Notes under the pieces: generated by a model | The model's input: only the letters and a program-made list of their open reading frames with translations | The model's database searches: none | Told to the model about the DNA's origin: nothing | Assembly: GCF_963675165.1 (NCBI RefSeq) | Contig: NC_087382.1 | Location: 1,922,001 to 1,986,000 of the forward strand | DNA length: 64,000 nt | DNA from: Halichondria panicea | Taxonomy: Eukaryota > Porifera > Demospongiae > Suberitida > Halichondriidae | Direction: 5' to 3' | Shown here: one piece after another, positions 9,724 through 62,504 of the stretch | Numbering within the stretch: the stretch's first letter is position 1 | Layout: the number at the start of each line of letters is the position of its first letter | Position numbers and translations under genes: made by a program

Positions 9724-10579
9724 TCACCTTCGTGCTCTCTTGGCAACTGCAATTAGGATATAATTATACCATGCACACATGCCTCTACTCTATATACATT
9801 TGCATACCTTGTGGTCCATTGGCAATTTTTAAGATGGCGCCCTCAACGTCTGAGCACAGGTTGTCTAGACCCACAGCCTTTGATTCGAGAGCACTCAGGA
9901 AAGTTTCAAGGTAGCAGTTAGAACCGCTTTGAAACCACTTCAGCAGCATTGCACGGAAACAATCTCCAACATCCAAAGGATTGTTTGTCCTAATGGCACT
10001 CAAATCGTCCCCAGACAAACCCAGATTATTACCAATGTTTGACCACTTTCCCCTTCCCCTGTACGCAGCGTCATACAGAGCGTTGAGGTACGGCTTTTCA
10101 GAGGGGGAGAGTTGGACTGTAAAAATGAATACAGGCTTGTATATAATTATATGTACATGTACTTTATTAAGTGTAAGTTTGATGTCATTGTTGCAAGCTT
10201 CCTATACTACCGTATAGCAGGTAATTTTCGGGGGACAAAATATTCGTGGTTCAGCAATATTGAGACATTTCGTGGATAATATTTTCGTGGTTGCCGTGCT
10301 TGGATTGTAAGTAAAGGTAGGCAAGGCCGCTTCATTCGTGGGTAAAATATTCGTGATCAGACCTCCAACCACGAAAACCACGAATATTTTGCCCCACGAA
10401 AATTACCAGCTATACGGTATTAGATCTATACCCATGTAAGTGAGGATAGATGATAAACTTAAATAGCTGTATACATGCAGACTCAGGGTGCAATGTCTTT
10501 TTATGAAAGAAGTCAGCCTCCAATGCAGGAACAGTAGCATAATTATGCCTCGGTGCGCACGGCGCAAGCGAGGTACGGT

Positions 10580-10619
<40 letters not shown>

Positions 10620-13600
10620 TGTGTAGACTGCTACAGCTGCTCAAGGATGAATCAAGTGCAAGTAAGAGTTTCTATAGGCTTCTAGTCATGTTTACTTGGA
10701 TTTTAATTCGTGAATAATGCTTCATTCTCGAGTTATGCCTAGTTTTGCTTACTTGGAATGCCATTGCAGCCTTTTTAGAAGAGCATGTAGCCAAACTTGT
10801 TTACCGAGTGTTGCTAATCTACTTAGTAGTTAGCTCTGCACTAGAACGCTAGCTATTGGTAGCTGCAAGAGTGAGAAGAGAGCTGCAAGGCTCTGCTGAT
10901 GGCAGCCATTAATTTTAGACTTGAACTTTTGGCATCGATCGTTTTAACAACAATCATGGTCGATCATTACCCACTCTCTGAGTTTTTGCAAGCAGCAAAA
11001 TTAAATTGTTTTTATCATGTGCATAAAAGCTATTAGTAGCAGCTTTATGTTATGTAGCTTTGGCATCTCCACCGAGGCATCAGCACCTGCGGTGCTTTCA
11101 TTATCATAGCTATAACTATACCTAAAAAGGGTATTTGTGGTTTTACTATGATGCCCTCGCTCTGGACGAATTATAAGTATACATGTTGTGCAAACCATAA
11201 ATTAGTTGTATAGGCTCATGCATGCAGTTCCTAAGCATTAGGGACTAGAACAATCTTTACCAAGACTGAATATGTTTTGATGGTAAACATAACGTTATTC
11301 CTGTGCACTATAATTAATTGAATCCACTCACTTTGCCCGTAGGAAGGTACAACTCGCTGTGGGACTGAGCCTGATCCAAGTGAGAGCGTAAAAGATATAT
11401 AGACAGATATAAATTATATATATAGCCTTTAGGTAAAGCTTTTACTACTGTATATATAGTACTTACTGTTGTTTGGGGTCGAAGAGGCTGGTGACTCTCC
11501 TCCTAAAATCACAAAATGTAATGCATGAATCATATAAGTGAATGGACACACCGTAAATCTTTTGTAGAAAATCAAGATCTTTCTCTGAAGGCCCATCAGC
11601 ACAACTCCGATGTCTCTTGTGAATCCCTCTCAAAACTGTCTTTGCTTCTTCACTGAGACTTCCATCAGCCTCAACTTTTGATAGAGTCTCGTGCTCCTTC
11701 TTTTTAAGCCAGTTCACATCAAACCTATAGACATAGCACACAATAGTAATAATTATGTATATAGCCGTATATAGTGCAAAATTTTTGAGGCACTGAAATT
11801 TCGTGAAATAGCCTTATAACAGCATTTTAGTGAATAAATTTTGTGAGTTTAACTGCTTATATTGAAAGCCACGCCATTAATCTTTGCACGTAATTAGCAG
11901 ATTTCGTGCATATTCGTGTAGGTGCTAACCCACGAAACGAAAAGAGCGAAAATTAAACCTCTCAAAGATTTCGCTATCACTCCGGAATTGTTACAATTTA
12001 CCAGTAGTGCATGATGCTGTCTGGATCGTATGATGGCGATATTGTTGTGGGACCTTCTGACTGGATTTGCAAAATATCTATGTCAAAATTCACGTTCTTC
12101 ATACGAGAATCCTTTTTCATTTTTTCCACATCCAACAAGCTGTTCGCTACCTTCCAGAAGTCAGAACGCTGGTGCTCGTGGAACAGACCAAGAGCATGGC
12201 CAAACTCATGTATGACAAGATATTTCTGCACTTCGGGTCCTTGACCATTTAGTGAAAGAACCATTGTGGGCTTAGACGTATCTACGACTTTCGTCGCTTG
12301 GCTTCCAACCACGGAACAACATCTACCACCTGTGCGGCCAAACACTGCTTGGATTCAGAATCTTAAAATAGTTAGTATACCTTCTTCAAAGATGACTCTG
12401 ATGTCAGCTGAATCTGGCCTACCCGTCTTCTTAAAGATTGGAATCTTGGGACACTTCTTGGTATTCCAAGCGGCAGCCCAACTAAGGATATTAGTGGTGT
12501 TGAGTACACCATACTCACACTTCCAGTTTTCCTGATCAAGAATTTCGGGATTGAGAAAGTGGACATTCAGGACGTCCTTCCCAGTCCAGATGTTGGAATT
12601 TTGAGCGTAGGCACCAGCTCCTGCCTGGTTAGCATCACTTGAGGCTTTAGCTTTGTTTTTACCCAACGATTCCGTGCAGTATGTCTGTAAATATATACAT
12701 ACAGTAAAGTATGGGCATTTCCAATCAAATGCTTGCTTACAAAAGTTGGTGAAACCAGGGGCTCTTCAGTCGTGCCCAGGGAAACTACTGGAGTTGGCTG
12801 GTCTTGTGTCCTCTGCAATTAAATTACAGTATATACAGTAACTACATATATAGTACAGTAACTATACATATGGTGGTTTAGGGGTAAGGATATAAAGGAG
12901 CGCTATAGCTGCATGGGTCATTTTCTTTTAGCTTCTCAGATATGCAATTTTAGCTCAGCCGTGATTCTAAACTGTACACACCCATCATAATTATCGCCAT
13001 TTATGGAGCATAAAACGCTTTGCGCCCTCTTTCATCTATGATATAGTACCCCTTTCTCCATAAAATCCTGGCTACATCCCTGGCCTCAACACAACAAGGT
13101 AGTAGTTGTAAATTTGGCAGATTTTGATATCAATGCTTCATTGTCAAATAAAAGTGAGCAAAAGCTTGAATCTGCACGTTGGTATGGCCTACACACGGCT
13201 TTGACTCGAGACTGTAGACTCACTAAAACGCCGAGGGTTTGCACTTCAGTGCTCTAGTTGCATGCGAGTAGCTTTATGTTAGGTAGTTTTGACACATCCC
13301 CGAGGCATCAGCTAGCACCCACGATGCTTTCATTTTAGTAGAGATGCTGAGTAAATACAGTCGGACATATACGGTATTCATACAATCTGATCGAGACTTT
13401 CTCGCAAACAACTCAAAGGGGGTGTATATCTTGCTATACTCTACTTGCATCAAAGTCTGCAGTATCTACATGTACAATAACCCCATATGACACATATGTG
13501 TCTAAGTATCAATAGTAATACAAAACCCTGATAGATATAGCATTTGATTTCATACTCACCTTTGGCACTGCATTTATCTTGCATCCATCTTGTACCTCCT

Positions 13601-13793
13601 CGAAACTTGTCAGCTTTTTGTATTCATTAAACCTTTCACTCCATATCTGCAGATGAGAGATGCTGCCTTTGTCGAATGTGTTTTCAACAAGAACTTTAAG
13701 AGTATCAATGCTATTACATTCAGTAATATCAATCTCTTCATTGCTATTTTTGTCCCGGTTATAAACCACTAGAGCAATAGATTTAGCAGCCAT
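9724..13793 (-). CDS. Ubiquitin-like + astacin-like zinc protease + death domain protein
   Basis: Nine exons: 13560-13793, 12741-12812, 12381-12684, 12002-12344, 11552-11724, 11467-11502, 11332-11370, 9808-10116, 9724-9746. All junction phases agree and total 1,533 bp (510 residues plus TGA). Residues 1-78 begin MAAKSIALVVYNRDKN and end EEVQDGCKINAVPK, resembling a ubiquitin-like or DCX/PB1-type fold. There is no signal peptide and no astacin prodomain. Residues about 132-330 form an M12A-like metalloprotease: HEFGHALGLFHEHQRSD at 249-265 (zinc His249, His253, His259; Glu250) and Met-turn SIMHY at 313-317. Residues about 407-495 are a death domain (KWSNIGNNLGL, then MLLKWFQSG). The end is basic (AKRARR). 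The intron between exons 3 and 4 would be only 36 bp. Known astacins are secreted, so an intracellular, death-fold-recruited protease is inferred. The protease and death domain are well supported; the N-terminal fold is tentative. Confidence 0.85.
10208..10419. mobile_element. Miniature inverted-repeat element, family B
   Basis: Ends TACCGTATAGC (10208-10218) and GCTATACGGTA (10409-10419), followed inward by matching arms GGTAATTTTCG and CGAAAATTACC and further ATTCGTGG/CCACGAAT stretches. It lies in an intron of the protease-death-domain gene. Other copies are at 36807-36958 and 45541-45709. Confidence 0.85.
10545..11080 (-). mobile_element. Inverted-repeat element, family A, in an intron
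   Basis: Ends ATGCCTCGGTG (10545-10555) and CACCGAGGCAT (11070-11080). The interior is the reverse complement of 41428-41965 over nearly its whole length, with a TG-rich microsatellite near one end. Confidence 0.8.
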
Positions 13794-14399: not shown

Positions 14400-16673
14400 T
14401 AGAGTAAGATCTACCAGGCCTCATACAAACGATCAAAACTCGATCAGAACTGTATAAAACCGTGCATGGCAAGGGCAAAAAAAACCCTTTTACGGCTGAG
14501 TGAGCATAATTATAGATTTACTTGCGCATGCGCATGACTAGGGTAATAGTAACACTTTTACAGCCAAAATAATAATCAACACTAATCATCAACAGCCAAA
14601 ATAATAATCAACACATAAAAATAATCATCAACACTTCATAATTTTCCACCAAAATAATAATCAACACTAATCATCAACAGCCAAAATAATAATCAACACA
14701 TAAATATAATCATCAACACTTCATAATTTTCCACATCCAGGTGCTGGAATACCTCTTTGGATACTCACCTCAAAGAAATGGGTTTTATCCAATCCACGAG
14801 TGACCCCTGCATATACATGGATGCAGGCGGAGATGTTTTCTTCATTGGCGTCTATGTGGACGACATTGTTTTGGCAGGACGATCCGATGAAAGAATCAAA
14901 GATGTAAAGGATGCAATCGCCAAGAAATTTGAAATCAAAGACATGCATGGGACAACTTCACTATTTTCTGGGCATGACTGTTATACAAAATGAGACAAAA
15001 AACTCTGTCTGGATTGGTCAGCCAACCTATACCGAAAAACTTTTAGAGAAGTTTGGAATGCAGGACTGTAACCCTGTTGGCACTCCAGTAGATGTCAGCT
15101 CAAAGTTGTTAGCAGCATCAAGTGAAGACGAAGGTATTGATCAACAATTGTACCAGTCTGTAGTTGGAAGCCTAATGTATCTATCTGTGAGTACAAGGCC
15201 GGATATAACGTATGCTCAGGGGCGGATCCAGGATTTAGGGAAGGGGGGTTCTTACTTCTTGGCCGCGCGAAGCGGCGAAATTTTTGGGTTGACCACGCCC
15301 CCTTTTACATGCCACGCCCATTAATTAACCAAATTCCCCTTCAACTTGAAAGAACACAAGGCAAAGCCATTCTCATGCTCTGGGATAGTGATTGCACTTT
15401 CTTCTCTTTCAGGAGAGCACCAATGTCCATTGGCTGATCCTCAGCGGAAGATCTCGTTGCTTGCTTCGATGAACACGGAGGGGTGATGGAGGTGGCTGGT
15501 GGTTCCAGTGGAGAGATAGTTGTGACTGGAGGAAAGATGGTTGTGACTGGAGGAGAGACGTTGATGACTGGAGGAGTGACGATGGTGGCTGGTGGTTCTC
15601 TTGAAGAGGAGACTGGCTGTAGACTTGACGCATCATCTAGATTATTATATTAGTCAATATAATTATTATAGCAATTATAATTAATCTATACAGTGTCTAT
15701 CATTCAGTATGCAGTGCCATGAACTCTCCCTTACCTGAAACTTTACTCCAGGAGTCAATGGAGGGTTGCAATCTAGCCTTTTGTTAGGATTCATGGCCAG
15801 GCTCAATTATCACTGTGACCATGTGGCTGGATGAGTCAATATAGCCAGCCCCACCCTCATATTATGCAGAGAGTACCAGCCCCACCCTCACATTATGCAG
15901 AGAGAACTTTGTACCCTATTGTCATGACAGTATAGTAAGCTAGCCAGGTGTATTAAATATAAAGTATCAACTTAGTGGAAGGGTAGTTCGTACGAACCCA
16001 ACGAACTACCTCTGGATCCGCCACTGATGCTGTATATAGGCAACCTGGCTCGATACACTTCCAAACCAACTAAAGCTCACTGGACAGCACTGAAACGTGT
16101 GCTGCGTTATCTTAAAGGTGCGACACACTATGGTATTCTATACAGTCGGAACAAATCTACTATTTGTGTTGGATACTCTGATTCTGATTGGGCTGGAGAT
16201 GTCAATGACAGAAAGTCCACATCTGGTTACCTGTTTCAAGTAAGTGGAGGAGCAGTTACATGGAAAAGCAACAAACAAAGCTGTGTTGCGCTCTCAACAG
16301 CCGAGGCTGAGTATGTAGCTCTCTCAAGTGCCGCACATGCAAGAGTCAGAAAAATTAAAATTGCTCAGAAAAATTATCGCCGAATTGGGGAGTCCTCAAA
16401 CAACCCCAACTACGATTTATGAAGACAATCAGTTCGCTATTGCAATGACTAAAAACCCACAATTTCACGGGTGTACTAAACATATTGATATTAAATATCA
16501 CTTTACTCGGGGAGCAAGTGAACAAAGAAAATATCGAACTTACATATTGTCCGACAGCTGAAATGGTGGCTGATATGTTTACAAAAGGACTGAGTCGTGA
16601 ACTGTTCTGCAAATTGAGAAAAATGGCAGGAATTGTCGAACCACCCTGAACTAAGTCTATAATTGAGGAGGAG
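14400..16673 (+). pseudogene. Deleted Ty1/copia body 1 (reverse transcriptase and RNase H remains)
   Basis: After a short leader and ATAATCAACAC tandem repeats, coding begins abruptly in the C-terminal part of the reverse transcriptase. The signature VYVDDIVLAG is at about 14850-14880. RNase H signatures (GYSDSDWAGD, STAEAEYVALS) follow. Gag, protease, integrase and most of the polymerase are absent. A 4-base insertion near 14943 and a frameshift near 16335 break the frame, and an 810-bp transposon interrupts it at 15217-16026. A purine tract (TTGAGGAGGAG) precedes LTR 2. Confidence 0.85.
15217..16026. mobile_element. Inverted-repeat transposon, family C, inside the copia body
   Basis: Ends CAGGGGCGGATCCAGG and CTGGATCCGCCACTG are inverted. 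ATGCT at 15212-15216 and again at 16027-16031 is the 5-base target duplication; the uninterrupted paralogue at 17940 shows the empty site. The interior has tandem GACTGGAGGA units and no recognisable transposase. Confidence 0.85.
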
Positions 16674-17126: not shown

Positions 17127-18573
17127 GAGTAAGATCTACCAGGCCTCATACAAACGATCAAAACTCGATCAGAACTGTATAAAACCGTGCATGGCAAGGG
17201 CAAAAAAACCCTTTTACGGCTGAGTGAGCATAATTATAGATTTACTTGCGCATGCGCATGACTAGGGTAATAGTAACACTTTTACAGCCAAAATAATAAT
17301 CAACACTAATCATCAACAGCCAAAATAATAATCAACACATAAAAATAATCATCAACACTTCATAATTTTCCACTTTTACAGCCAAAATAATAATCAACAC
17401 TAATCATCAACAGCCAAAATAATAATCAACACATAAAAATAATCATCAACACTTCATAATTTTCCACATCCAGGTGCTGGAATACCTCTTTGGATACTCA
17501 CCTCAAAGAAATGGGTTTTATCCAATCCACGAGTGACCCCTGCATATACATGGATGCAGGCGGAGATGTTTTCTTCATTGGCGTCTATGTGGACGACATT
17601 GTTTTGGCAGGACGATCCGATGAAAGAATCAAAGATGTAAAGGATGCAATCGCCAAGAAATTTGAAATCAAAGACATGGGACAACTTCACTATTTTCTGG
17701 GCATGACTGTTATACAAAATGAGACAAAAAACTCTGTCTGGATTGGTCAGCCAACCTATACCGAAAAATTTTTAGAGAAGTTTGGAATGCAGGACTGTAA
17801 CCCTGTTGGCACTCCAGTAGATGTCAGCTCAAAGTTGTTAGCAGCATCAAGTGAAGACGAAGGTATTGATCAACAATTGTACCAGTCTGTAGTTGGAAGC
17901 CTAATGTATCTATCTGTGAGTACAAGGCCGGATATAACGTACGCTGTAGGCAACCTGGCTCGATACACTTCCAAACCAACTAAAGCTCACTGGACAGCAC
18001 TGAAACGTGTGCTGCGTTATCTTAAAGGTGCGACACACTATGGTATTCTATACAGTCGGAACGAATCTACTATTTGTGTTGGATACTCTGATTCTGATTG
18101 GACTGGAGATGTCAATGACAGAAAGTCCACATCTGGTTACCTGTTTCAAGTAAGTGGAGGAGCAGTTACATGGAAAAGCAACAAACAAAGCTGTGTTGCG
18201 CTCTCAACAGCCGAGGCCGAGTATGTAGCTCTCTCAAGTGCCGCACATGCAAGAGTCAGTGTTGCTCAGAAAAATTATCGCCGAATTGGGGAGTCCTCAA
18301 ACAACCCCAACTACGATTTATGAAGACAATCAGTCCGCTATTGCAATGACTAAAAACCCACAATTTCACGGGCGTACTAAACATATTGATATTAAATATC
18401 ACTTTACTCGGGAGCAAGTGAACAAAGGAAATATCGAACTTACATATTGTCCGACAGCTGAAATGGTGGCTGATATGTTTACAAAAGGACTGAGTCGTGA
18501 ACTGTTCTGCAAATTGAGAAAAATGGCAGGAATTGTCGAACCACCCTGAACTAAGTCTATAATTGAGGAGGAG
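17127..18573 (+). pseudogene. Deleted Ty1/copia body 2
   Basis: Same internal deletion junction as body 1, just before a WNTSLDTHLKEMGF-like segment, and no inserted transposon. The frame runs from 17490 to 18323 with VYVDDIVLAG and GYSDSDW, then shifts. The remaining RNase H region with EDNQSAIAMTKNP continues in another frame to a stop at 18547-18549. The shared deletion and shared frameshift show both bodies descend from one defective element. Confidence 0.85.
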
Positions 18574-42326: not shown

Positions 42327-44988
42327 ATGTCCGCCATTAAAGTCTACATTTTGCTCTCACTGTCTGTGCTGTGTATTACCAATGGGCAAGGTATGCAACA
42401 TAGATACCTATATTCTAGCTAGATCTGTATAGAGCTAAAAATCAACTGTTTTAGCATGCATCACTGAAATCTGTGTGGTCTGCAGGTCAGGGCCAGAGGT
42501 GCCTTGATGGGTTTCCTTCAGTCACTGACAACACCTGTACATTGTCAACATGCCCGATCCAGGGGATAAGTAGCTCCCGGCAACTACGACTCTTCCCTTC
42601 CATGAGGATTACCTGTAATGGGATGCTAGTGGGATTGTCTGTAGCAGGAGAGACTCTAAGTGGAGGAGATTACCCTATTCTACAGATCTGGAGACCCACT
42701 GGCCCCACACCCAATGACTATGAGAGAATCAGTGAATACACATTCCCAATTGGATGCACTCAGCTACCTAACAATGTCTGGCAGTGTAGAGTCAATTCCA
42801 TTGATGTTGAGGAGAGGGACATCATTGGAATTGATCTCCCTCTTGCCATTAAGACTGTTGCAGCATTTGGAATGTACTCCATGTCCCCGCCATCGTTTAC
42901 CAGCTACACACTAAGCAGTACAACAGAGAGAACATTCTCAGTGCCTGTGTCTGCTATAACTGACAGTGCTCAGCCATTGCTTACTCTGGATATTCAGGAA
43001 CAAGGTGATAATTATAACTATGCCTCGAGGTATACAAATCTATGAGTAGTTAACAGTAGTTAAGTTATCATAAGATTCTAAGAAATTGATTGTGTAAGTG
43101 AACGAATAAAATATTTTCCCAAACGTCATTATAGTCGGAAATTCATTTAGGTGAAAACAGGGTGATCGTAAAAATGTCGATTGATTTCTGGAAATAAATG
43201 TTTCTGGACAAGTTTTTCTTATCAAACGTTAGACAGCTACTCAGTGTAATTTTGAGACCTTAGCCGATAGATCTTCTTCAAATCTCTCCCTAACTGAAAT
43301 GGCACTAAAAACTAGCACTGCGGAGGATGACTTGCATGTGTAAAAAATATCGAACCTATAGCCTCGTTCCCGGCCAGAATTGAATGCTAAGTCAAAAAGA
43401 GGGCCTGGTACCTATTGCATGGGTGATAGTGCCGTAAATTAGTCCGTTTACTATGTTACGTAATACTTTATCTCTATGACTGAGTTCCGTGAAGCTGTGG
43501 CTTAATTATGCCATCTATTGCGCTGGTATAGAAGGCTTGAACACTATATAGTCTGCAGAAGACAGGAGAGGCTCAGTATCTCCGCAATTAATAATGTTCA
43601 GCGTAATAGTGAAAGAGACTTAACATCTATAAAGAAGTGTGGAGACCAGTTGTTGGGCAGAGAACTGTGCAGAAAACCATGCGCTCCTTCTATCAAGGCT
43701 CTTGGTCTGCTATAACCAGTATATACGCCTATTAGTTGATGTGCGCTTATTAAGTTCATTGTCTATATATAATTATGTCTACGATGGTCGTATAGCTGTA
43801 GCAGCACCATATACAGACTTGCCACAGCCTGTACAGATCCAAGCTAATACATCACGACCATACAACCATCATTATGATAGAGAGCCTCTTCTGTCTTCAG
43901 ACTAGTGTGAAAGCCTTCTGAACCAATGCAACCGAGAACTAAGCTGCTTTACATAAATAGAAACATATATAGAAAGGGGATTCCCAAATTCTGGTGAGTA
44001 AATTAGTGCATGCGCACTATCACACATGCATAAGGTACCAGGCCGTATACGAAGAAATTGGCCTGGGACCGAGGCTAACAACATTCAGATTCTATGGTGT
44101 TCATACAGTCATTGAGACCCCAACTACTGAGCTGACAACACAGACCCCTACTACTGAGCTGACAACACAGACCCCAACTACTCAGCAGACAACACAGGCT
44201 CAGCCGACAACACAGGCCCCAACTATATATACTCAGTGAACAACACAGGGCTCAACTACTCAGCGGACAACACAGGCCCCAACTACTCAGCTGACAACAC
44301 AGGCCCCAACTACTCAGCTAGAAGATCACACTACTGCAGAAGATATTGGGCAACCGACGGCTAGAGGTACAGAGATAGTTGGTCCGTTGGTTGGTGGTGT
44401 GGTTGGTGTGCTACTGTTGGTGCTGATTGTTGCACTGGTGGTGGGTTTGGTTGTATATATTCTTACGAGGAGGAGATTCACTAATAAATGGAAACCTGAG
44501 GTGGTATCTGAACATCAGCTTGCAGAGGGCAGTCAGAGAGGGGTGATCAGTAATGGTATCCACAGCGCTGAGACCGGTGAGTGCATGTGTGTGTTTGTGT
44601 GCTCGCAGATATTGTTTACCTTTATTCTCTCAATATACAATCCTTTGCTATAGCATAATTATAGTGAAAGTTGTGATTGTATGAAGTCGTTTAATTTTAA
44701 CCATGCATTCATATAAACTCTCCTACTCCACGCACACACACACACACACCCACACACACACACGCACACACACATGAAGTTATTGAGCTCGGCTCTCGAA
44801 GACAATCGACGGACAGTATGTCCAGCAATCCATTGTACATGCCCAACACAGATGCATCCATCAAGTATGAGGGAGAGCCTGAATATACTTACATTGATCA
44901 AAAAGATATACGCATTCTAGCAAGAAATCCAATTGTTGGTGTTGGTGAAGATGCAGACAATGTTGCATATAGCTTAACTACTCACTAA
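42327..44988 (+). pseudogene. Mucin-like single-pass receptor, copy 1, with nonsense codon
   Basis: Four exons: 42327-42390, 42486-43004, 44109-44576, 44780-44988 (1,260 bp, phases agree). Signal peptide MSAIKVYILLSLSVLCITNG; ectodomain of about 170 residues with six cysteines (CLDGF, NTCT, STCP, ITCNG, IGCTQ, WQCRV); short Thr/Pro/Gln stalk (PTTELTTQ units); membrane helix GVLLLVLIVALVVGLVVYIL; cytoplasmic tail. The tail has SSNPLYMPN (an NPxY motif, typical of PTB-domain docking) and EYTYIDQ. A TGA at 44237-44239 interrupts the stalk in frame, so only a soluble product could be made. The family was not recognised and may be sponge-specific. Function inferred only as surface adhesion or recognition. 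It is a tandem duplicate of the gene at 45842. Confidence 0.75.
43005..44108. other. Long intron of receptor copy 1
   Basis: No exon could be supported. It corresponds to the intron 46522-47880 of copy 2, with recognisable but interrupted similarity (for example ACTAAAACTAGCACTGCG). Confidence 0.5.
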
Positions 44989-45841: not shown

Positions 45842-48800
45842 ATGTCCACCATTAAAGTCTACATTTTGCTCTCACTGTCTGTGCTGTGTATTACCAATGG
45901 GCAAGGTATGCAACTAGTTCTATATCAAGAGTTCAGTAGGAACTCTTGTAAAACTATCTATATATAGCTCTGTTTTAGCATGCATCAAATCCTTGTGGTC
46001 TGCAGGTCAGAGCTGCCTTGATGGGTTTCCTTCAATCACTGACAACACCTGTACATCATCATCATGCCCCTTTCAGGGGATAAGTAGCTCCCGGCAACTA
46101 CGACTCTTCCCTTCCATGAGGATTACCTGTAATGGGATGCTAGTGGGATTGTCTGTAGCAGGACAGACTCGAAGTGGAGTAGATTATCATATTCTGCAGA
46201 TCTGGAGACCCACTGGCCCCACGTCCAATGACTATGAGAGAATCAGTGAATACACATTCCCAATTGGATGCTTTCAGCTACCTAACAATGTCTGGCGGTG
46301 TACAGTCATCAGTCCATCAATTCATGTTGAGGTGGGAGACATCATTGGAATCAATCTTCCTCGTAACAGAAGGACCGCTGCAGCATTTGAGATGTTCTTC
46401 ACGTCCCCGTCATCTTCTACCAGCTACATACTAAGCAATACATCAGTCTCAACATTTTCAGTACCTGGATCTACTGCTGCCAGTGCTCAACCTGTGCTTA
46501 CTCTGAACATTCAGGAACAAGGTATATATAAATTATGCCTCGAGTTGTACAGTGCTAGATTACCACAAAATTATGAGTTGTTATTATTTGTTGATACCAT
46601 TGTGTAGGTGAATGAAAGCTTCAAATATATTTCCCCAAGTTCTTTAAGGTGAAAATGGGGTCATCATAAAAAATGTAAATGTGTTTCCGGACAAGTTTTT
46701 TCTTCAAAAGTTAGACAGCTTACTCTGTGTAATCACCCTAACCGAAATGGTACTAAAACTAGCACTGCGAAGAATGTCTAGATATGTAAGCAACATCGCA
46801 TTCCCGTTCTATAATTGAACGCTAGGTCGAAAAAAGAGGGCCTGGTATATATATATTATTGCAGGGGTGATAGTGCGCATGCGCTTCATAATTACCCAGA
46901 ATATGGGTAATCGTACTACGAACGTAACTTAGTGAATTATACCTTATATAAACTAGTCCGTTTACTAAGAATAATAATGTTCCGTAATACTTTATCTCTA
47001 TGCATGACTAAGTTCTGGCGCACTATCAATACAAGCAATAGATATATATCAGGCTGTATTTTCCCCCTTCCTGTCTATTAGAAAAAAATTGGCCTGGAAC
47101 CGAGGCTATCAAACCTTTCATAAGATAGCCAAACTATCTAGATGTTGTGACAAAGTTTATGGAAACCATCTCCCTAACCGAACCCACTATAACAATTGTT
47201 TGCTGTTTTATTAATCACATGCACAAACCCACCACTTTGTGTTGGCATGGAGTAGCTTATTCATTCACCTACACATTGGTATCAGCACATTTCTTATACA
47301 ATCATAAGATATTTACATTTACGTACAACTTTGTGGTAATGGATGCACTGTAGTCGCACGAGGGATACGGTGTGTGTGTGTGCATGTGTGTGTCTATTCC
47401 AGCTGCATGTATAACTGCCCAACAGTGGCGTTTCTAGGAAATGAGTAATACACCCGTGCACCAGAAGCCACACCCATTTCCCCTGTGCATAACAACGTTT
47501 TTAAGGTGCAGTCTATCATTAGACGTGCAAAAAGCTTTATCTGAATATAGTGCTGCTCACCGTTTATGAATAGCTATATAGTTTAGCTTTAGGGGTGCTT
47601 GAGCCTATAGCTGGATACGCCACTGGCCCAATGATTGCAATGCCACGAACTAAGAGGCTTCTAGCCACGTTCTCATGGATTTTGATTCGTGGATATGCAA
47701 AATGAGCTTCTTTCACAAGTTAGGCTAATTTGACTCACAGTGAAGGCTGTTGCAGTACTTCTCTTTAGAATCTTTTATAGCATAATCTTGAGCAAAGTAA
47801 AACATATACTGAGAGGCATTAGCACAGCGCAGCTTGCAACATTCATTAAAATTAAGATCCTATGGTGTTCATGCATACAGTTACTGAGACCCCAACTACT
47901 GAGCTGACGACACAGGCCCCAACTACTGATCAGCTGACGACACAGGCCTCAACTACTGAGCTGACAACACAGGTCCCAACTACTGAGCCGACAACACAGG
48001 TCCCAACTACTGAGCTGACAACACAGGCCCCAACTACTGATCAGCTGACAACACAGGTCCCAACTACTGAGCTGACGACACAGGCCCCAACTACTGAGCT
48101 GACGACACAGGTCCCAACTACTCAGCCGACAACACAGGTCCCAACTACTGATCAGCCGACAACACAGGCCGCCCCAACTACTGATCAGCCGACAACACAG
48201 GCCCCAACTACTGATCAGCCGACAACACAGGCCGCCCCAACTACTGATCAGCCGACAACACAGGCCCCAACTACTGAGCCGACAACACAGGCCCCACCTA
48301 CTGATCAGCTACCAACACAGGCCCCAACTACTGATCAGCTGACAACACAGGCCCCAACTACTGATCAGCTGACAACACAGGCCCCAACTACTGAGCTCAC
48401 GACACAGGCCCCAACTACTGAGCTCACGACACAGGCCCCAACTACTGAGCTGACGACACAGGCCTCAACTACTGAGCTGACAACACAGGTCCCAACTACT
48501 GAGCTGACGACACTGGCCTCAACTACTGATCAGCTGACAACACAGGTCCCAACTACTGAGCTGACGACACACACCCCAACTACTGAGCTGACGACACAGG
48601 CCCCAACTACTGAGCTGACGACACAGGTCCCAACTACTGATCAGCTGACAACACAGGCCCCAAGTACTGATCAGTTCACAACACAGGCCCCAAGTACTGA
48701 GCTGACGACACAGGCCCCAACTACTGAGCTGACAACACAGGCCCCAACTACTGAGCTAACGACACAGGCCTCAACTACTGATCAGCTGACAACACAGGCA

Positions 48801-49503
48801 AGTACTGAGCCGACAACACAGGCCTCAACTACTGATCAGCTGACAACACAGGTCCCAACTACTGATCAGCTGACAACACAGGCCCCAACTACTGATCAGC
48901 TGACAACACAGGCCCCAACTACTGAGCCGACTACTCAGTCCACAACACACACTACTGCAGTAGATATTGGGCAACCGACGGCTAGAGGTACAGAGATAGT
49001 TGGTCCGTTGGTTGGTGGTGTGGTTGGTGTGCTACTGTTGGTGCTGATTGTTGCACTGGTGGTTGGTGTGCTACTGTTGGTGCTGATTGTTGCACTGGTG
49101 GTGGGTTTGGTTGTGTATATTCTTACGAGGAGGAGATTCACTAATAAATGGAAACCTGAGATTGTATCTGAACGACATTTTGCAGAGGGCAGTCAGAGAG
49201 GGGTGATCAGTAATGGTATCCACAGCGCTGAGACCGGTGAGTGCATGTGTGTGTTTGATGTGTGCTTGCTTGCAGATATTTTTACCTTTATTCTCTCAAT
49301 ATACAGCCATTATAGGGAAATTTGTGATTGTATGAAGTCGTTTATTTTAACCATGCAGTCATATCCTACTCCCATGCACACACATAGTAGATTATGAAGT
49401 TATTGAGCTCGACTCTATACGACAACCGACGGACAGTATGTTCAAGAATCTATCGTACATGCCCAACACAGATGCATCCATCAACTATGAGGAAGAGCAT
49501 TGA
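45842..49503 (+). CDS. Mucin-like single-pass receptor, copy 2
   Basis: Exons 45842-45905, 46006-46521, 47881-49236, 49388-49503 (2,052 bp, 683 residues). Signal peptide 1-21; six-cysteine ectodomain 23-193, closely matching copy 1; about 360 residues of PTTELTTQA and PTTDQLTTQA repeats, dense in potential O-glycosylation sites; membrane region about 570-607; cytoplasmic tail. The membrane stretch contains GVLLLVLIVALVV twice in tandem, so it is some 13 residues longer than in copy 1. The tail has YEVIEL and LSYMPN, where copy 1 has NPLY. Relative to copy 1 one base is inserted near 49499, producing TGA at 49501-49503. Without it the frame would stay open into the sequence gap and restore EYTYID. 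Whether this is biological or an assembly error is unknown. Confidence 0.75.
47423..47625. mobile_element. Small inverted-repeat element with 6-base duplication
   Basis: Ends CAGTGGCGTTTCTAG and CTGGATACGCCACTG, imperfectly inverted. GCCCAA flanks both sides (47417-47422 and 47626-47631). It lies in the receptor copy 2 intron and has ends related to family C but a longer target duplication. Confidence 0.75.
47881..48950 (+). repeat. Coding minisatellite (27/30-bp units)
   Basis: Roughly 38 units of CCAACTACTGAGCTGACAAC-type sequence, in 27- or 30-base lengths, all multiples of three. Array length can vary without breaking the frame. Copy 1 has only a few units. Confidence 0.95.
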
Positions 49504-49896: not shown

Positions 49897-51216
49897 CTAA
49901 CCCTAACCCTAACCCTAACCCTAACCCTAACCCTAACCCTAACCCTAACCCTAACCCTAACCCTAACCCTAACCCTAACCCTAACCCTAACCCTAACCCT
50001 AACCCTAACCCTAACCCTAACCCTAACCCTAACCCTAACCCTAACCCTAACCCTAACCCTAACCCTAACCCTAACCCTAACCCTAACCCTAACCCTAACC
50101 CTAACCCTAACCCTAACCCTAACCCTAACCCTAACCCTAACCCTAACCCTAACCCTAACCCTAACCCTAACCCTAACCCTAACCCTAACCCTAACCCTAA
50201 CCCTAACCCTAACCCTAACCCTAACCCTAACCCTAACCCTAACCCTAACCCTAACCCTAACCCTAACCCTAACCCTAACCCTAACCCTAACCCTAACCCT
50301 AACCCTAACCCTAACCCTAACCCTAACCCTAACCCTAACCCTAACCCTAACCCTAACCCTAACCCTAACCCTAACCCTAACCCTAACCCTAACCCTAACC
50401 CTAACCCTAACCCTAACCCTAACCCTAACCCTAACCCTAACCCTAACCCTAACCCTAACCCTAACCCTAACCCTAACCCTAACCCTAACCCTAACCCTAA
50501 CCCTAACCCTAACCCTAACCCTAACCCTAACCCTAACCCTAACCCTAACCCTAACCCTAACCCTAACCCTAACCCTAACCCTAACCCTAACCCTAACCCT
50601 AACCCTAACCCTAACCCTAACCCTAACCCTAACCCTAACCCTAACCCTAACCCTAACCCTAACCCTAACCCTAACCCTAACCCTAACCCTAACCCTAACC
50701 CTAACCCTAACCCTAACCCTAACCCTAACCCTAACCCTAACCCTAACCCTAACCCTAACCCTAACCCTAACCCTAACCCTAACCCTAACCCTAACCCTAA
50801 CCCTAACCCTAACCCTAACCCTAACCCTAACCCTAACCCTAACCCTAACCCTAACCCTAACCCTAACCCTAACCCTAACCCTAACCCTAACCCTAACCCT
50901 AACCCTAACCCTAACCCTAACCCTAACCCTAACCCTAACCCTAACCCTAACCCTAACCCTAACCCTAACCCTAACCCTAACCCTAACCCTAACCCTAACC
51001 CTAACCCTAACCCTAACCCTAACCCTAACCCTAACCCTAACCCTAACCCTAACCCTAACCCTAACCCTAACCCTAACCCTAACCCTAACCCTAACCCTAA
51101 CCCTAACCCTAACCCTAACCCTAACCCTAACCCTAACCCTAACCCTAACCCTAACCCTAACCCTAACCCTAACCCTAACCCTAACCCTAACCCTAACCCT
51201 AACCCTAACCCTAACC
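49897..51216. repeat. Telomere array (CTAACC)n, about 220 units
   Basis: 1,320 bases of perfect CTAACC repeat, the complement of TTAGGG. The C-rich strand reading left to right means the chromosome end faces left and subtelomeric DNA lies to the right. The absence of variant units fits a true terminal array or consensus-collapsed long reads. Confidence 0.97.
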
Positions 51217-51910
51217 ACAACTCTAGCTGTTGTTAGAGTACTTAACCACAACTCTAGCTGTTGTTAGAGTACTTAACCACAACTCTAGCTGTTGTTAGAG
51301 TACTTAACCACAACTCTAGCTGTTGTTAGAGTACTTAACCACAACTCTAGCTGTTGTTAGAGTACTTAACCACAACTCTAGCTGTTGTTAGAGTACTTAA
51401 CCACAACTCTAGCTGTTGTTAGAGTACTTAACCACAACTCTAGCTGTTGTTAGAGTACTTAACCACAACTCTAGCTGTTGTTAGAGTACTTAACCACAAC
51501 TCTAGCTGTTGTTAGAGTACTTAACCACAACTCTAGCTGTTGTTAGAGTACTTAACCACAACTCTAGCTGTTGTTAGAGTACTTAACCACAACTCTAGCT
51601 GTTGTTAGAGTACTTAACCACAACTCTAGCTGTTGTTAGAGTACTTAACCACAACTCTAGCTGTTGTTAGAGTACTTAACCACAACTCTAGCTGTTGTTA
51701 GAGTACTTAACCACAACTCTAGCTGTTGTTAGAGTACTTAACCACAACTCTAGCTGTTGTTAGAGTACTTAACCACAACTCTAGCTGTTGTTAGAGTACT
51801 TAACCACAACTCTAGCTGTTGTTAGAGTACTTAACCACAACTCTAGCTGTTGTTAGAGTACTTAACCACAACTCTAGCTGTTGTTAGAGTACTTAACCAC
51901 AACTCTAGCT
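51217..51910. repeat. 31-bp subtelomeric satellite
   Basis: About 22 almost identical tandem units, each containing ACTCTAGCTG and TTGTTAGAGTACTTAACC. ACTCTA and TAGAGT are inverted within each unit, so it can form a small hairpin. It follows the telomere without a spacer. The last unit is cut off by different sequence at about 51911. Confidence 0.97.
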
Positions 51911-52400: not shown

Positions 52401-54595
52401 AAGGCTCCCTGTCAGAAGCTGGCTAAACCAGCAAATGAAATATTGCACACTATTTGCTCTCCCTTTTTGCCTAATGTTTTTTAGATTAGGGCGTGCAAGG
52501 CTCCCCCCGTCAGAAGCTGGCTAAACCAGCAAATGAAATATTGCACACTATTTAAATACGGGCTCTCCCTTTTTGCCTAATTTTTTTAGATTAGGGCGTG
52601 CAAGGCTCCCCGTCAGAAGCTGGCTAAACCAGCAAATGAAATATTGCACACTATTTAAATACGGGCTCTCCCTTTTTGCCTAATTTTTTTAGATTAGGGC
52701 GTGCAAGGCTCCCGTCAGAAGCTGGCTAAACCAGCAAATGAAATATTGCACACTATTTAAATACGGGCTCTCCCTTTTTGCCTAATTTTTTTAGATTAGG
52801 GCGTGCAAGGCTCCCGTCAGAAGCTGGCTAAACCAGCAAATGAAATATTGCACACTATTTAAATACGGGCTCTCCCTTTTTGCCTAATTTTTTTAGATTA
52901 GGGCGTGCAAGGCTCCCGTCAGAAGCTGGCTAAACCAGCAAATGAAATATTGCACACTATTTAAATACGGGCTCTCCCTTTTTGCCTAATTTTTTTAGAT
53001 TAGGGCGTGCAAGGCTCCCCGTCAGAAGCTGGCTAAACCAGCAAATGAAATATTGCACACTATTTGCTCTCCCTTTTTGCCTAATTTTTTTTAGATTAGG
53101 GCGTGCAAGGCTCCCCGTCAGAAGCTGGCTAAACCAGCAAATGAAATATTGCACACTATTTAAACACGGGCTCTCCCTTTTTGCCTAATTTTTTTAGATT
53201 AGGGCGTGCAAGGCTCCCGTCAGAAGCTGGCTAAACCAGCAAATGAAATATTGCACACTATTTGCTCTCCCTTTTTGCCTAATGTTTTTTAGATTAGGGC
53301 GTGCAAGGCTCCCCGTCAGAAGCTGGCTAAACCAGCAAATGAAATATTGCACACTATTTAAATACGGGCTCTCCCTTTTTGCCTAATTTTTTTAGATTAG
53401 GGCGTGCAAGGCTCCCCGTCAGAAGCTGGCTAAACCAGCAAATGAAATATTGCACACTATTTAAATACGGGCTCTCCCTTTTTGCCTAATTTTTTTAGAT
53501 TAGGGCGTGCAAGGCTCCCGTCAGAAGCTGGCTAAACCAGCAAATGAAATATTGCACACTATTTAAATACGGGCTCTCCCTTTTTGCCTAATTTTTTTAG
53601 ATTAGGGCGTGCAAGGCTCCCGTCAGAAGCTGGCTAAACCAGCAAATGAAATATTGCACACTATTTAAATACGGGCTCTCCCTTTTTGCCTAATTTTTTT
53701 AGATTAGGGCGTGCAAGGCTCCCGTCAGAAGCTGGCTAAACCAGCAAATGAAATATTGCACACTATTTAAATACGGGCTCTCCCTTTTTGCCTAATTTTT
53801 TTAGATTAGGGCGTGCAAGGCTCCCCGTCAGAAGCTGGCTAAACCAGCAAATGAAATATTGCACACTATTTGCTCTCCCTTTTTGCCTAATTTTTTTTAG
53901 ATTAGGGCGTGCAAGGCTCCCCGTCAGAAGCTGGCTAAACCAGCAAATGAAATATTGCACACTATTTGCTCTCCCTTTTTGCCTAATTTTTTTTAGATTA
54001 GGGCGTGCAAGGCTCCCCGTCAGAAGCTGGCTAAACCAGCAAATGAAATATTGCACACTATTTAAACACGGGCTCTCCCTTTTTGCCTAATTTTTTTTAG
54101 ATTAGGGCGTGCAAGGCTCCCCGTCAGAAGCTGGCTAAACCAGCAAATGAAATATTGCACACTATTTAAACACGGGCTCTCCCTTTTTGCCTAATTTTTT
54201 TAGATTAGGGCGTGCAAGGCTCCCCGTCAGAAGCTGGCTAAACCAGCAAATGAAATATTGCACACTATTTGCTCTCCCTTTTTGCCTAATTTTTTTTAGA
54301 TTAGGGCGTGCAAGGCTCCCCGTCAGAAGCTGGCTAAACCAGCAAATGAAATATTGCACACTATTTAAATACGGGCTCTCCCTTTTTGCCTAATTTTTTT
54401 AGATTAGGGCGTGCAAGGCTCCCCGTCAGAAGCTGGCTAAACCAGCAAATGAAATATTGCACACTATTTGCTCTCCCTTTTTGCCTAATTTTTTTTAGAT
54501 TAGGGCGTGCAAGGCTCCCCGTCAGAAGCTGGCTAAACCAGCAAATGAAATATTGCACACTATTTAAACACGGGCTTGCCTAATTTTTTTAGATA
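52401..54595. repeat. ~100-bp subtelomeric satellite
   Basis: About 22 tandem units in two length classes, with or without a TTTAAATACGGGC segment (about 103 and 93 bp). Each has the palindrome GCTGGCTAAACCAGC and a second hairpin GCCTAAT..ATTAGGGC, which includes one TTAGGG hexamer. Long open frames occur on both strands only because of the periodicity. Confidence 0.95.
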
Positions 54596-55676
54596 GCAGG
54601 CAAAACCAGCAAATAAATTATTGCACACTATAATGATGCTAGTCATCTTAATTGTATGTACAGCATGATATGTTTTACCTCCTTCTTTTTTAATTGTCTC
54701 GAATGAGCAAAAACATAATCACACTATTTACGACTAACGTTTGGCCTGGAGTCTCCTCTTGATTCTTGGTGTTTCTTGATACTTGGCGTCTTTGATGTCT
54801 CTTAATATTCTGATGCTCTTGTCTGTAAGAAAAAAAATACTGATTTAACTTAAGAATTTTATTTACCTAAAAAAAAGTGTTGAGCTGTTTTTGAACTTAA
54901 TACACGCGCCAGGAGAAGAATCGAGGCTAATTACTACCAGTCTCGATTTCAGGCCGCGACAAAAAATAAAAAGCTGCCATAGCAGGCGGCTTACATACAC
55001 ACAAGCTACAAGCTAAAGCCAGCGCTCAGCTGTAGGAGGCTTGAAGCTGACATTGGGAAGCTGACATTGGTAGGATTGAAGCTGGTAGGCAGCTATACCA
55101 ACACTTAGACACTGACCTGACACAAGCTACTTCGATCAGGCAATTAAGCTAACACAAAGCCAGTGCTAGCTAACACAAAGCTCTACAAACCTTATAGCTT
55201 GGAGCAGTACTGGGTTAGGTAGAGGAGATCTGATGGACATAGAGGCTGCTGGGTTCCTCAGTAGAGTATAGAGAAGGTAGAAGAGAACTTGAGGTAGAGC
55301 AGAGGTAGAAGAGGCTGAATAATGAGCTAGACTGCTGGGTTGCTAGTTAAACTAAAATCGTTCTCACTAAGGTTTCTCCAGCATTACCTTACATGGTAGT
55401 ACATCACATTCCATATTACAGAGTCTTGGCAAGGTTTCTCCAGCATTACCTTACTTGGTAGTACATTACATTCCATATTACAAGAGTTTAAAGGTTCATA
55501 ACTGTCAACACATTCAGATGACTAATAAAGATTAATGTACTAAATTGCTGTATAAATCATTGAAATTGCGGCACAAGTTCATAATGAATTAGCATACACT
55601 CGCTTTGGTTGTTCCACCCTAATTACTGTACACCCCTAGAGAGTACAGAACAAGGTAAACAGTGAACAGTAAGGTA
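54596..55676. other. Transition region with short duplications
   Basis: Two copies of an AAGGTTTCTCCAGCATTACC unit lie at about 55368-55490, and GCTAACACAAAGC-like repeats near 55145. No gene recognised. Confidence 0.55.
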
Positions 55677-58600
55677 TCATGTCTCAGAACAACATAGAAG
55701 GACATGTGGCATGCTCGGTACGATCATGTAGCTATTCTGCTGTCCAATCACCAGTAAGTGTCATTGCGCCCTCTGTTCCGATTTATAAATCCCAGGGTCA
55801 CAGCTAGTCCCTAAGGCAGGGCCTAGCACAGGCTCTACATCACCCTGAGGCATGATCCCAACTGTACAAAGCTCTAATCAGTACTAACCTAGATACAAAG
55901 ATAATGGGCCACCTGCCATGCACACAAGCTCAAAGCTATTTTATAATTAACACACAGTAACTTACCCACTGGAATAGGTAGCACTCAATGGAGGTTTCCT
56001 CCTGTTCAGATGATGGAGTGGTTGGTTGATCCATTGTATGGTGGTACTACCTCCGTTGCACATGAAGAGAGAGAGAGGGATAGAATAGTCACCCATACAC
56101 CACACAGCTACAAGCATAAGCACAGCATACACTCGCCTTGGTTGTACCACCCTAATTACTGTACACCCCTAGAGAGTACAGAACAAGGTAAACAGTAAAC
56201 AGTTAGGTATCATGTCTCAGAACAATATAGAACCTGTGCCAGGACATGTGGCATGCTCGGTACGATCGGGTCATGACAACGTAGCTATTCTGCCTCATTC
56301 CTGTCCAATCACCAGTAAGTGTCATTGCGCCCCCACTGGGCAGTATTGCTCTGTTCCGATTTCTAAATCCCATGCCTTCAGGGCTACCGATACCGCAACG
56401 CGATGGCAGGATCCCAAAAGCAAGGAATCTAGAAATCAAACAGAGGCTATACTGTCAAGTTTTCCCAAAGGTAAGGATCGCTCAAGACGCTCGACTTGCT
56501 GATCATACAACAGGTCAACAGGGTCACAGCTAGTCCCTAAGGCAGGGCCTAGCATAGGCTCTACATCACCCTGAGGCATGATCCCAACTGTACAAAGCTC
56601 TAATCAGTACTAACCTAGATACAAAGATAATGGGCCACCTGCCATGCACACAAGCTCAAAGTTATTTTATAATTAACCTTACCCACTGGAATAGGTAGCA
56701 CTCAATGGAGGTCTCCTCCTGTTCAAGTGGCAGGATGATGGAGTGGTTGGTTGGTCCATTCTATGGTGGTACTCCCTCCGTTGCACATGAAGAGAGAGAG
56801 AGAGGGATAGAATAGTCACCCATACACCACACAGCTACAAGCATAAGCACAGCATACACTCGTACCACCCTAATTACTGTACACCCCTAGAGAGTACAGA
56901 ACAAGGTAAACAGTAAACAGTTAGGTATCATGTCTCAGAACAATATAAAACCTGTGCCAGGACATGTGGCATGCTCGGTACGATCGGGTCATGACAACGT
57001 AGCTAATCTGCTTCATTCCTGTCCAATCACCAGTAAGTGTCATTGCGCCCCCACTGGGCAGTATTGCTCTGTTCCGATTTCTAAATCCCCTGCCTTCAGG
57101 GCTACCGATACCGCAACGCGATGGCAGGATCCCAAAAGCAAGGAATCTAGAAATCGAACAGAGGCTATACTGTCAAGTTTTCCCAAAGGTAAGGATCGCT
57201 CAAGACGCTCGACTTGCTGATCATACAACAGGTCAACAGGGTCACAGCTAGTCCCTAAGGCAGGGCCTAGCACAGGCTCTACATCACCCTGAGGCATGAT
57301 CCCAACTGTACAAAGCTCTAATCAGTACTAACATAGATACAAAGATAATGGGCCACCTGCCATTATTTTATAATTAACACACAGTAACTTACCCACTGGA
57401 ATAGGTAGGAGGTCTCCTCCTGTTCAAGTGGCAGGATGATGGAGTGGTTGGTTGGTTGGTCCATTCTATGGTGGTACTACCTCCGTTGCACATGAAGAGA
57501 GAGAGAGGGATAGAATAGTCACCCATACACCACACAGCTACAAGCATAAGCACTCGTACCACCCTAATCACTGTACACCCCTAGAGTGTACAGAACAAGG
57601 TAAACAGTGAACAGTTAGGTATCATGTCTCAGAACAACATAGAACCTGTGCCAGGACATGTGGCATGCTCGGTACGATCGGGTCATGACAACGTAGCTAT
57701 CCTGTATCATTCCTGTCCAATCACCAGTAAGTGTCATTGCACCCCCACTGGGCAGTATTGCTCTGTTCCGATTTCTAAATCCCATGCCTTCAGGGCTACC
57801 GATACTGCAACGCGATGGCAGGATCCCAAAAGCAAGGAATCTAGAAATCGAACAGACGCTATACTGTCAAGTTTTCCCAAAGGTAAGGATCGCTCAAGAC
57901 GCTCGACTTGCTGATCATACAACAGGTCAACAGGATCACAGCTAGTCCCTAAGGCAGGGCCTAGCACAGGCTCTACATCACCCTGAGGCAAGCTCTAATC
58001 AGTACTAACCTAGATACAAAGCCACCTGCCATGCACACAAGCTCAAAGTTATTTTATAGTTAACACACAGTAACTTACCCACTGGAATAGGTAGCACTCA
58101 ATGGAGGTCTCCTCCTGTTCAAGTGGCAGGAGTGGTTGGTTGGTCCATTCTATGGTGGTACTCCCTCCGTTGCACATGAAGAGAGAGAGAGAGAGGGATA
58201 GAATAGTCACCCATACACCACACAGCTACAAGCATAAGCACAGCATACACCCTAATTACTGTACACCCCTAGAGAGTACAGAACAAGGTAAACAGTGAAC
58301 AGTTAGGTATCATGTCTCAGAACAACATAGAATCTGTGCCAGGACATGTGGCATGCTCGGTACGATCGGGTCATGACAACGTAGCTATTCTGCATCATTC
58401 CTGTCCAATCACCAGTAAGTGTCATTGCGCCCCCACTGGGCAGTATTGCTCTGTTCCGATTTCTAAATCCCATGCCTTCAGGGCTACCGATACCGCAACG
58501 CGATGGCAGGATCCCAAAAGCAAGGAATCTAGAAATCGAACAGAGGCTATACTGTCAAGTTTTCCCAAAGGTAAGGATCGCTCAAGACGCTCGACTTGTT

Positions 58601-61600: not shown

Positions 61601-62230
61601 CCCACTGGAATAGGTAGGAGGTCTCCTCCTGTTCAAGTGGCAGGATGATGGAGTGGTTGGTTGGTCCATTCTATGGTGGTACTCCCTCCGTTGCACATGA
61701 AGAGAGAGAGAGGGATAGAATAGTCACCCATACACCACACAGCATACACTCGCCTTGGTGGTTGTACCACCCTAATTACTGTACACCCCTAGAGAGTACA
61801 GAACAAGGTAAACAGTAAACAGTTAGGTATCATGTCTCAGAACAACATAGAACCTGTGCCAGGACATGTGGCATGCTCGGTACGATCGGGTCATGACAAC
61901 GTAGCTATTCTGCCTCATTCCTGTCCAATCACCATTAAGTATCATTGCGCCCCCACTGGGCAGTATTGCTCTGTTCCGATTTCTAAATCCCATGCCTTCA
62001 GGGCTACCGATACCGCAACGCGATGGCAGAATCCCAAAAACAAGGAATCTAGAAATCGAACAGAGGCTATACTGTCAAGTTTTCCCAAAGGTAAGGATCG
62101 CTCAAGACGCTCGACTTGCTGATCATACAACAGGTCAACAGAGTCACAGCTAGTCCCTAAGGCAGGGCCTAGCACAGGCTCTACATCACCCTGAGGCATG
62201 ATCCCAACTGTACAATGCTCTAATCAGTAC
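55677..62230. repeat. ~700-bp macrosatellite with 2,810-bp higher-order repeat
   Basis: Complete monomers starting ATGTCTCAGAACAA begin at 56212, 56930, 57624, 58312, 59022, 59740, 60434, 61122 and 61832, with a degenerate one at 55678. The spacings are 718, 694, 688, 710, 718, 694, 688, 710. Monomers four apart are almost identical while neighbours differ, giving a 2,810-bp higher-order unit present twice plus a fifth-position monomer. Every complete monomer keeps a 96-codon plus-strand frame (MSQNNIEPVPGHVACSV), and most keep an 85-codon minus-strand frame (MPQGDVEPVLGPALG). Each has donor-like GTAAGT and GTAAGG sites. Whether any is expressed cannot be told. Confidence 0.95.
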
Positions 62231-62504
62231 TAACCTAGATACAAAGATAATCCATGCACACAAGCTCAAAGCTATTTAATAATAATATTAACACACAGTA
62301 ACTTACCCACTGGAATAGGTAGCACTCTCTCCTCCTGTTCAAGTGGCAGGATGATGGAGTGGTTGGTTGGTCCATTGTATGGTGGTACTCCCTCCGTTGC
62401 AGAGAGAGGGATAGAGTAGCCATCATGCTGCCATACACGTACACAGCTACAAGCATATTTAAAGCGCAGCACTCATAGTAAGTGGGCGGGGCTATTCTTT
62501 GGGA

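Follow-up and report, generated by a model that had tools for sequence, protein, structure and literature searches.

A predicted astacin-type protease with a death domain in the sponge Halichondria panicea, and its family of relatives, many with adaptors

Canonical animal astacins carry a signal peptide, an aspartate-switch prodomain and disulfides, and the available text of a 2023 review describes them as multidomain extracellular proteins (PMC9848320). Some intracellular types (SH2, TPR, ZF-UBR) are named among their partners in a figure legend of that review; Death, CARD and SAM are absent there, and the word "death" is absent from the main text in the portion available (PMC9848320). Here we describe a gene from a 64-kb stretch (the window, C6:1922001-1986000, on a contig of 7,592,338 bases) of the 131 Mb genome of Halichondria panicea, which very probably encodes a fusion of an N-terminal module, an astacin domain and a death domain. 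To our knowledge, death-fold coupling among animal proteases is confined to the caspases and their kin. Initiator caspases bear CARD, DED or Death domains, and cFLIP, a catalytically dead relative, is an inactive competitor of caspase-8. In the literature searched, with most subscription-journal papers and preprints outside its scope, no astacin-death-domain protein is reported in the text available, nor is the architecture in the available portions of PMC12909245, PMC8242945, PMC9798719 and PMC12345144. The word "astacin" occurs once each in the available text of PMC8195603 and PMC7159879, within a reference title, and in that of a coral paper it denotes a toxin-like match, separate from the death-domain list (PMC3750612).

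The window gene lies on the minus strand at 9724..13793, where nine exons (Table 1) splice into 1533 nt encoding 510 amino acids, with consistent phases, no internal stops and GT and AG at the ends of every intron; the span and the nine phase-consistent exons proposed in an earlier sequence-only reading were reproduced exactly. The protein aligns over 99% of its length, at 63% identity, with the H. panicea proteins P0001 and P0002, and their C-terminal VAKKPRM corresponds to VAKRARR from the short final exon of the window gene. This full-length alignment and the conserved last exon give the exon chain independent support.

Exons 3 to 5 encode an astacin (M12A) catalytic domain, detected by Pfam Astacin at residues 208-318 (E 3.6e-10, 40.3 bits, cut-off 22.5). 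The zinc motif HEFGHALGLFHEHQRSD and the SIMHY Met-turn named in the sequence-only reading are both present. The pattern HExxHxxGxxHExxRxD was matched in 12/12 proteins (the window protein, P0001-P0010 and P0012); of the full EXXRXDRD signature, the same 12/12 keep ExxRxD and lack the next RD. Both the profile and the fold of the catalytic domain fit astacin/peptidase family M12A, and a protease fold and a death-domain fold are both predicted in the structural model of the close paralogue P0001. Judged by its sequence, the catalytic domain is M12A, and the whole protein is not a canonical secreted astacin.

The Pfam Death profile scored 22.1 bits against the whole window protein, slightly below the cut-off of 22.6, and passed it when the region was scanned alone (25.5 bits, E 1.5e-5), so that the domain search bore out Astacin outright and Death in the isolated region. 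The PF00531 match together with the death fold places the region among Death domains, and in the P0001 model the predicted death domain matches those of FADD and TNFR1 by structure comparison. A ubiquitin-like (UBL-like) N-terminus, also proposed earlier, fared less well. In its favour are a strand-strand-helix-strand-strand topology predicted in the P0001 model and weak matches of the exon profile, at E 0.05-0.31, to chains of UBL5, the BILBO1 N-terminus and ubiquilin-3; against it, the model has a pLDDT of 50-59 in this part, ribosomal L23 came first (E 0.037) and exon 1 of the window gene alone had no Pfam match. One of 11 members matched PB1 (E 0.0038). The ubiquitin-like identity is thus plausible but weak.

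Genome searches with P0004 and P0001, plus one copy from a local scan, recovered 46 loci bearing a zinc-site exon of divergent M12A type (a weak Astacin match on C13 would give 47), of which 37 were analysed in sequence, in stretches of 10 kb each. Among these, 31 carry HExxH and six HQxxH; the S[IV]MHY Met-turn, present in the window protein, is found in 34/37 and missing in three. Since the zinc-motif glutamate is termed catalytically essential in the available text of the 2023 review (PMC9848320), the six HQxxH copies are predicted pseudo-enzymes. Tandem clusters of family loci occur on C3 and C1, and the window gene has a tandem duplicate about 16 kb away, L018 (C6:1912501-1922500), with the same order of UBL, protease and Death. 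No animal besides Halichondria is named among the matches listed, many of which are nameless, and lineage restriction is not claimed.

Three further loci deserve description. L017 (C3:1383501-1393500) is a Death-Death-protease copy with HQxxH, and its public model P0024 has the same architecture and stops short within the first exon of the protease. The UBL-protease-SAM model P0004 (L022, C14:4245876-4252003) has a Mob1/phocein continuation (Pfam E 1.1e-42), which is either a genuine extra fusion or two genes merged by annotation. A distinct large tandem cluster at C3:4783703-5010224 consists of ordinary astacin exons.

To find adaptor modules, profiles built from H. panicea proteins were compared with the stop-free frames in the 37 loci. 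At least one same-strand adaptor (UBL-like, SAM, CARD or Death, interaction modules familiar from cell death and immunity) was found in 23/37. An upstream UBL-like module occurs in 11, a Death domain in 13 on the downstream side (partial in two) and in six on the upstream side, SAM in six and CARD or CARD-like in three; one locus may count in several classes, and where an adaptor lay between two protease genes its order and distance decided the assignment. Across the family the adaptors are interchangeable, and many loci carry them on one side of the protease or on both. Of the adaptor exon matches no more than 3 kb from a protease exon, 50 lie on the same strand and none on the opposite one. 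Public H. panicea models of paralogues carry the same kinds of fusion with conserved exon order, which upholds the placement of protease and death domain in one gene. Independent checks matter here, as family members served to train the local profiles. As to CARD, the exon in L029 clears the Pfam CARD cut-off and the one in L027 matches no Pfam family. The SAM structures of DGK-delta (E 1.5e-4) and Shank3 (E 2.7e-4) were retrieved with a profile of three SAM sequences; individual SAM segments fail the Pfam cut-off. Pfam Death, run on 10 paralogue proteins, exceeded the cut-off in P0003, P0006, P0008 and P0009. Two relatives read as single open frames, P0058 and P0059, join the protease to weak Death-like ends (E 0.0012 and 0.0018, 85 proteins scanned), and P0059, of 558 amino acids, also holds a weak SAM_1 match (E 0.0075, 17.1 bits, cut-off 23).

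A tree was built from 63 rows, leaving out those below 200 amino acids (one HQ copy, two fragments) and the frameless secreted L003. One branch (support 100/99) sets the 36 family rows apart, and another (100/100) does so for the seven secreted sponge astacins. The neighbours of the family are M12A sequences that are bacterial or unlabelled (one is fungal), not the secreted sponge astacins; the deepest branches are weak, and grouping the two was not rejected (p-AU 0.4). Recent bacterial transfer was considered and gained no support, as a scan of prokaryote genomes, with 80/121 confirmed matches kept, found no close relative: the top-scoring row, from Pseudomonas mandelii, reached 35% over residues 68-190, and none exceeded 44%, a value reached over a short segment. 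In one pair of copies, L009/L011, the death exon is 57% identical and the four other exons tested are 81-91% identical, as if that exon had diverged or been exchanged.

The sequence-only reading held that the window protein lacks a secretion signal. Judged by hydrophobicity alone, with neither a signal-peptide predictor nor a secreted control, no signal-peptide-like N-terminus is seen in the window protein or in P0001-P0009; the highest 11-residue Kyte-Doolittle mean within the first 40 residues of the window protein is 1.64, and in-frame stops lie immediately upstream of its ATG. The claim is supported for these proteins, but the relative P0058 starts hydrophobic. The secreted H. panicea astacins share four cysteine columns in 7/7 copies, and in the 36 family rows only one cysteine column reaches half (20/36). 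The absence of a visible leader, the upstream stops, the loss of the secreted-type cysteine columns and the adaptor types together point to a cytosolic location of the family proteins. The FxGD aspartate switch is absent in 12/12 family proteins, a result for which the control is weak, the motif being found in 1/7 secreted frames (8 loci, one frameless).

Most family proteins have a cysteine shortly ahead of the catalytic domain, often in an F/Y-C-T context, which we hypothesize could act as a latency switch. A preset rule (a cysteine 12-45 residues upstream) gave 29/30 HE against 5/6 HQ loci and no separation (p 0.31); narrowing the interval by hand, post hoc, to 18-31 residues gave 28/30 against 2/6 (Fisher p 0.003), a figure not used as evidence.

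The account that we favour, with moderate confidence, is that the family comprises predicted cytosolic, adaptor-recruited metalloproteases working like the death-fold caspases, and a death-fold-recruited intracellular effector is what we infer as the best reading of the window protein. The enzyme would be produced in the cytosol in latent form and then recruited and concentrated by a receptor or adaptor complex, itself built through homotypic death-fold (or SAM/UBL) contacts; latency would be lifted, perhaps by displacing the cysteine ahead of the catalytic domain; and the freed protease would cleave intracellular host or microbial proteins. The HQxxH copies may be inactive competitors, in the manner of cFLIP. 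A larger proposition is that these latent cytosolic metzincins, with CARD, Death, SAM or UBL recruitment, a cysteine switch and tuning by HQxxH copies, form a second caspase-analogous system in immunity or programmed cell death, parallel to the sponge's own caspases; it is tentative, and we regard it as possible and somewhat doubtful. Matches to the caspase domain (C14) number 33 in the H. panicea genome, those to CARD 27 and those to Death at least 148 (150 scored of 503 candidates), all counted as frames, not genes.

Several observations weigh against the favoured account. No adaptor was recognised in 14/37 loci, although the analysed stretches of 10 kb may have missed some. Pfam Death fell below the cut-off in P0001 (14.0), P0005 (19.7) and P0012 (17.7), and gave no row for P0002, P0004 and P0007; the estimate for the mechanism was set slightly lower because of the paralogues below the cut-off. 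The candidate switch cysteine sits where the P0001 model has a pLDDT below 50. The divergent relative P0058 has a hydrophobic N-terminus, so that the absence of secretion may not extend to every relative, and in P0012 an inner stretch at residue 170 is strongly hydrophobic. The window gene and the adjoining copy L018 both lack a protein record among the matches listed, none of which lies on C6, and the expression of the window copy carries that caveat. Lastly, dN/dS between the window gene and L018 (five exons per gene compared in all such tests, linker exons left out) is 2.29, from 44.5 nonsynonymous and 5.5 synonymous differences; as it is not different from 1 (p 0.11), constraint on the window copy is not demonstrated.

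The last two points bear on the alternative that the family is real but the window copy, recently duplicated and under relaxed selection, is decaying or silent. Window gene and neighbour are 95.1% identical over a 3448-column alignment, introns included, and the HQxxH copies and lost Met-turns elsewhere in the family also fit this alternative. Yet the frame, motifs and splice sites of the window copy are intact, its death exon is 98.9% identical in protein to that of L018, and nine other pairs gave dN/dS of 0.48-0.80, below 1 at p < 0.05 in 7/9 (the pairs are not independent); we hold decay of the window copy to be rather unlikely.

A different role inside the cell may also be considered, namely a cytosolic anti-microbial or protein-clearing enzyme rather than a signalling effector, with the death fold serving just to direct it to invaders or aggregates. 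The many loci, partly in tandem, and their fast protein change resemble conflict genes and would suit such a role, but signalling complexes are where CARD and Death partners typically occur, and we give this alternative a minor share of the probability. Export is improbable: the proteins would leave the cell leaderless, or with a leader exon missed, and act outside, the adaptors being baggage or extracellular binders. The intracellular nature of SAM, CARD and Death modules argues against it, as do the non-conserved cysteine columns, the N-termini of the window protein and P0001-P0009 and the stops upstream of the ATG; in its favour are the hydrophobic start of P0058 and the multidomain extracellular character that the available text of the review gives to astacins (PMC9848320). 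That a protease gene and an adjoining death-domain gene were joined by eye is highly improbable. The abundance of death domains makes chance neighbours possible and the window copy is without a protein record among the matches listed, but the paralogue protein models with the same fusion and the strand control reject such an origin, and the last exon shared with P0001 and P0002 and the single frame of P0059 also speak against it.

If the favoured account is right, death-fold signalling in an animal has gained a further protease fold, beside its own caspases, and astacin-type enzymes are able to work inside cells. The existence of a metzincin acting as signalosome effector, and the nature of its latency device, become testable questions, and the family supplies candidate effectors for the numerous sponge proteins with Death or CARD domains.

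The remaining features of the window are listed with the exons in Table 1. The arrays between 49897 and 54576 look like a chromosome end inside the scaffold, possibly a misjoin. Rfam gave no match within the 64-kb window.

Table 1. Exons of the protease-death-domain gene and other features of the window (window positions)
Feature	Position	Strand	Content
Exon 1	13560..13793	-	Start codon and UBL-like (beta-grasp-like) N-terminal domain, 78 aa; fold weakly supported
Exon 2	12741..12812	-	Linker; counterpart small exon in P0001 gene (residues 76-101)
Exon 3	12381..12684	-	Candidate latency cysteine Cys105 (in TYCT); linker; N-terminal portion of protease domain
Exon 4	12002..12344	-	Zinc site HEFGHALGLFHEHQRSD, Met-turn SIMHYW
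Exon 5	11552..11724	-	C-terminal portion of protease domain, ending ..DLDFLQKIY
Exon 6	11467..11502	-	Linker, short
Exon 7	11332..11370	-	Linker, short
Exon 8	9808..10116	-	Death domain (Pfam Death 25.5 bits, region alone)
Exon 9	9724..9746	-	Final codons VAKRARR and stop; compare VAKKPRM in P0001, P0002
Reverse transcriptase/RNase H fragments	14700-16500, 17460-18323		Two, just upstream of the protease gene; first apparently split by another insert; presumably Ty1/copia-like (family name from motifs)
Cysteine-containing open frames	42455-43045, 45918-46607		Two, related
TTQAPTT-repeat frame	47856-49397		Long, followed by a hydrophobic stretch; resembles a mucin-like membrane protein
Telomere-type array	49897-51216		Perfect (CTAACC)x220, adjoining a run of N
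31-bp array	51212-51910		Perfect, 22.5 copies
102-bp array	52456-54576		21 copies
Direct repeats	55591-62416		Eight to ten, mostly about 700 bp apart; exon-like open frames, 109 aa on plus, in places 93 aa on minus

Among systems of similar logic, the Death-like/TRADD-N conflict proteins share with the sponge family the lineage-specific shuffling of death folds in marine animals, including a sponge, but the modules that they combine are ankyrin, LRR, WD40 or GT4, according to the text available (PMC8195603). The available text on bacterial ternary conflict systems counts a metallopeptidase among the rare effector domains, the components there being vWA, caspase and trypsin, and by analogy these systems may serve as a distant precedent for the protease logic of the sponge (PMC7159879). 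Canonical astacins (astacin, BMP1/tolloid, the meprins and the secreted H. panicea copies) have a leader and conserved cysteines, whereas the sponge family shows no visible leader, lacks those cysteines, bears UBL-like, SAM, CARD or Death modules and forms a separate group in the tree. We know of no death-fold adaptors for myroilysin, a bacterial M12A enzyme. It is nearest to the sponge catalytic domain, with 20-24% identity in structural alignments (PDB 5zjk, 5gwd, 5czw). The initiator caspases and cFLIP resemble the family in that a protease is fused to death-fold recruitment domains and both have catalytically dead relatives, predicted ones in the sponge family; they differ in the enzyme itself, a cysteine protease in the caspases and an unrelated zinc metalloprotease in the sponge family.

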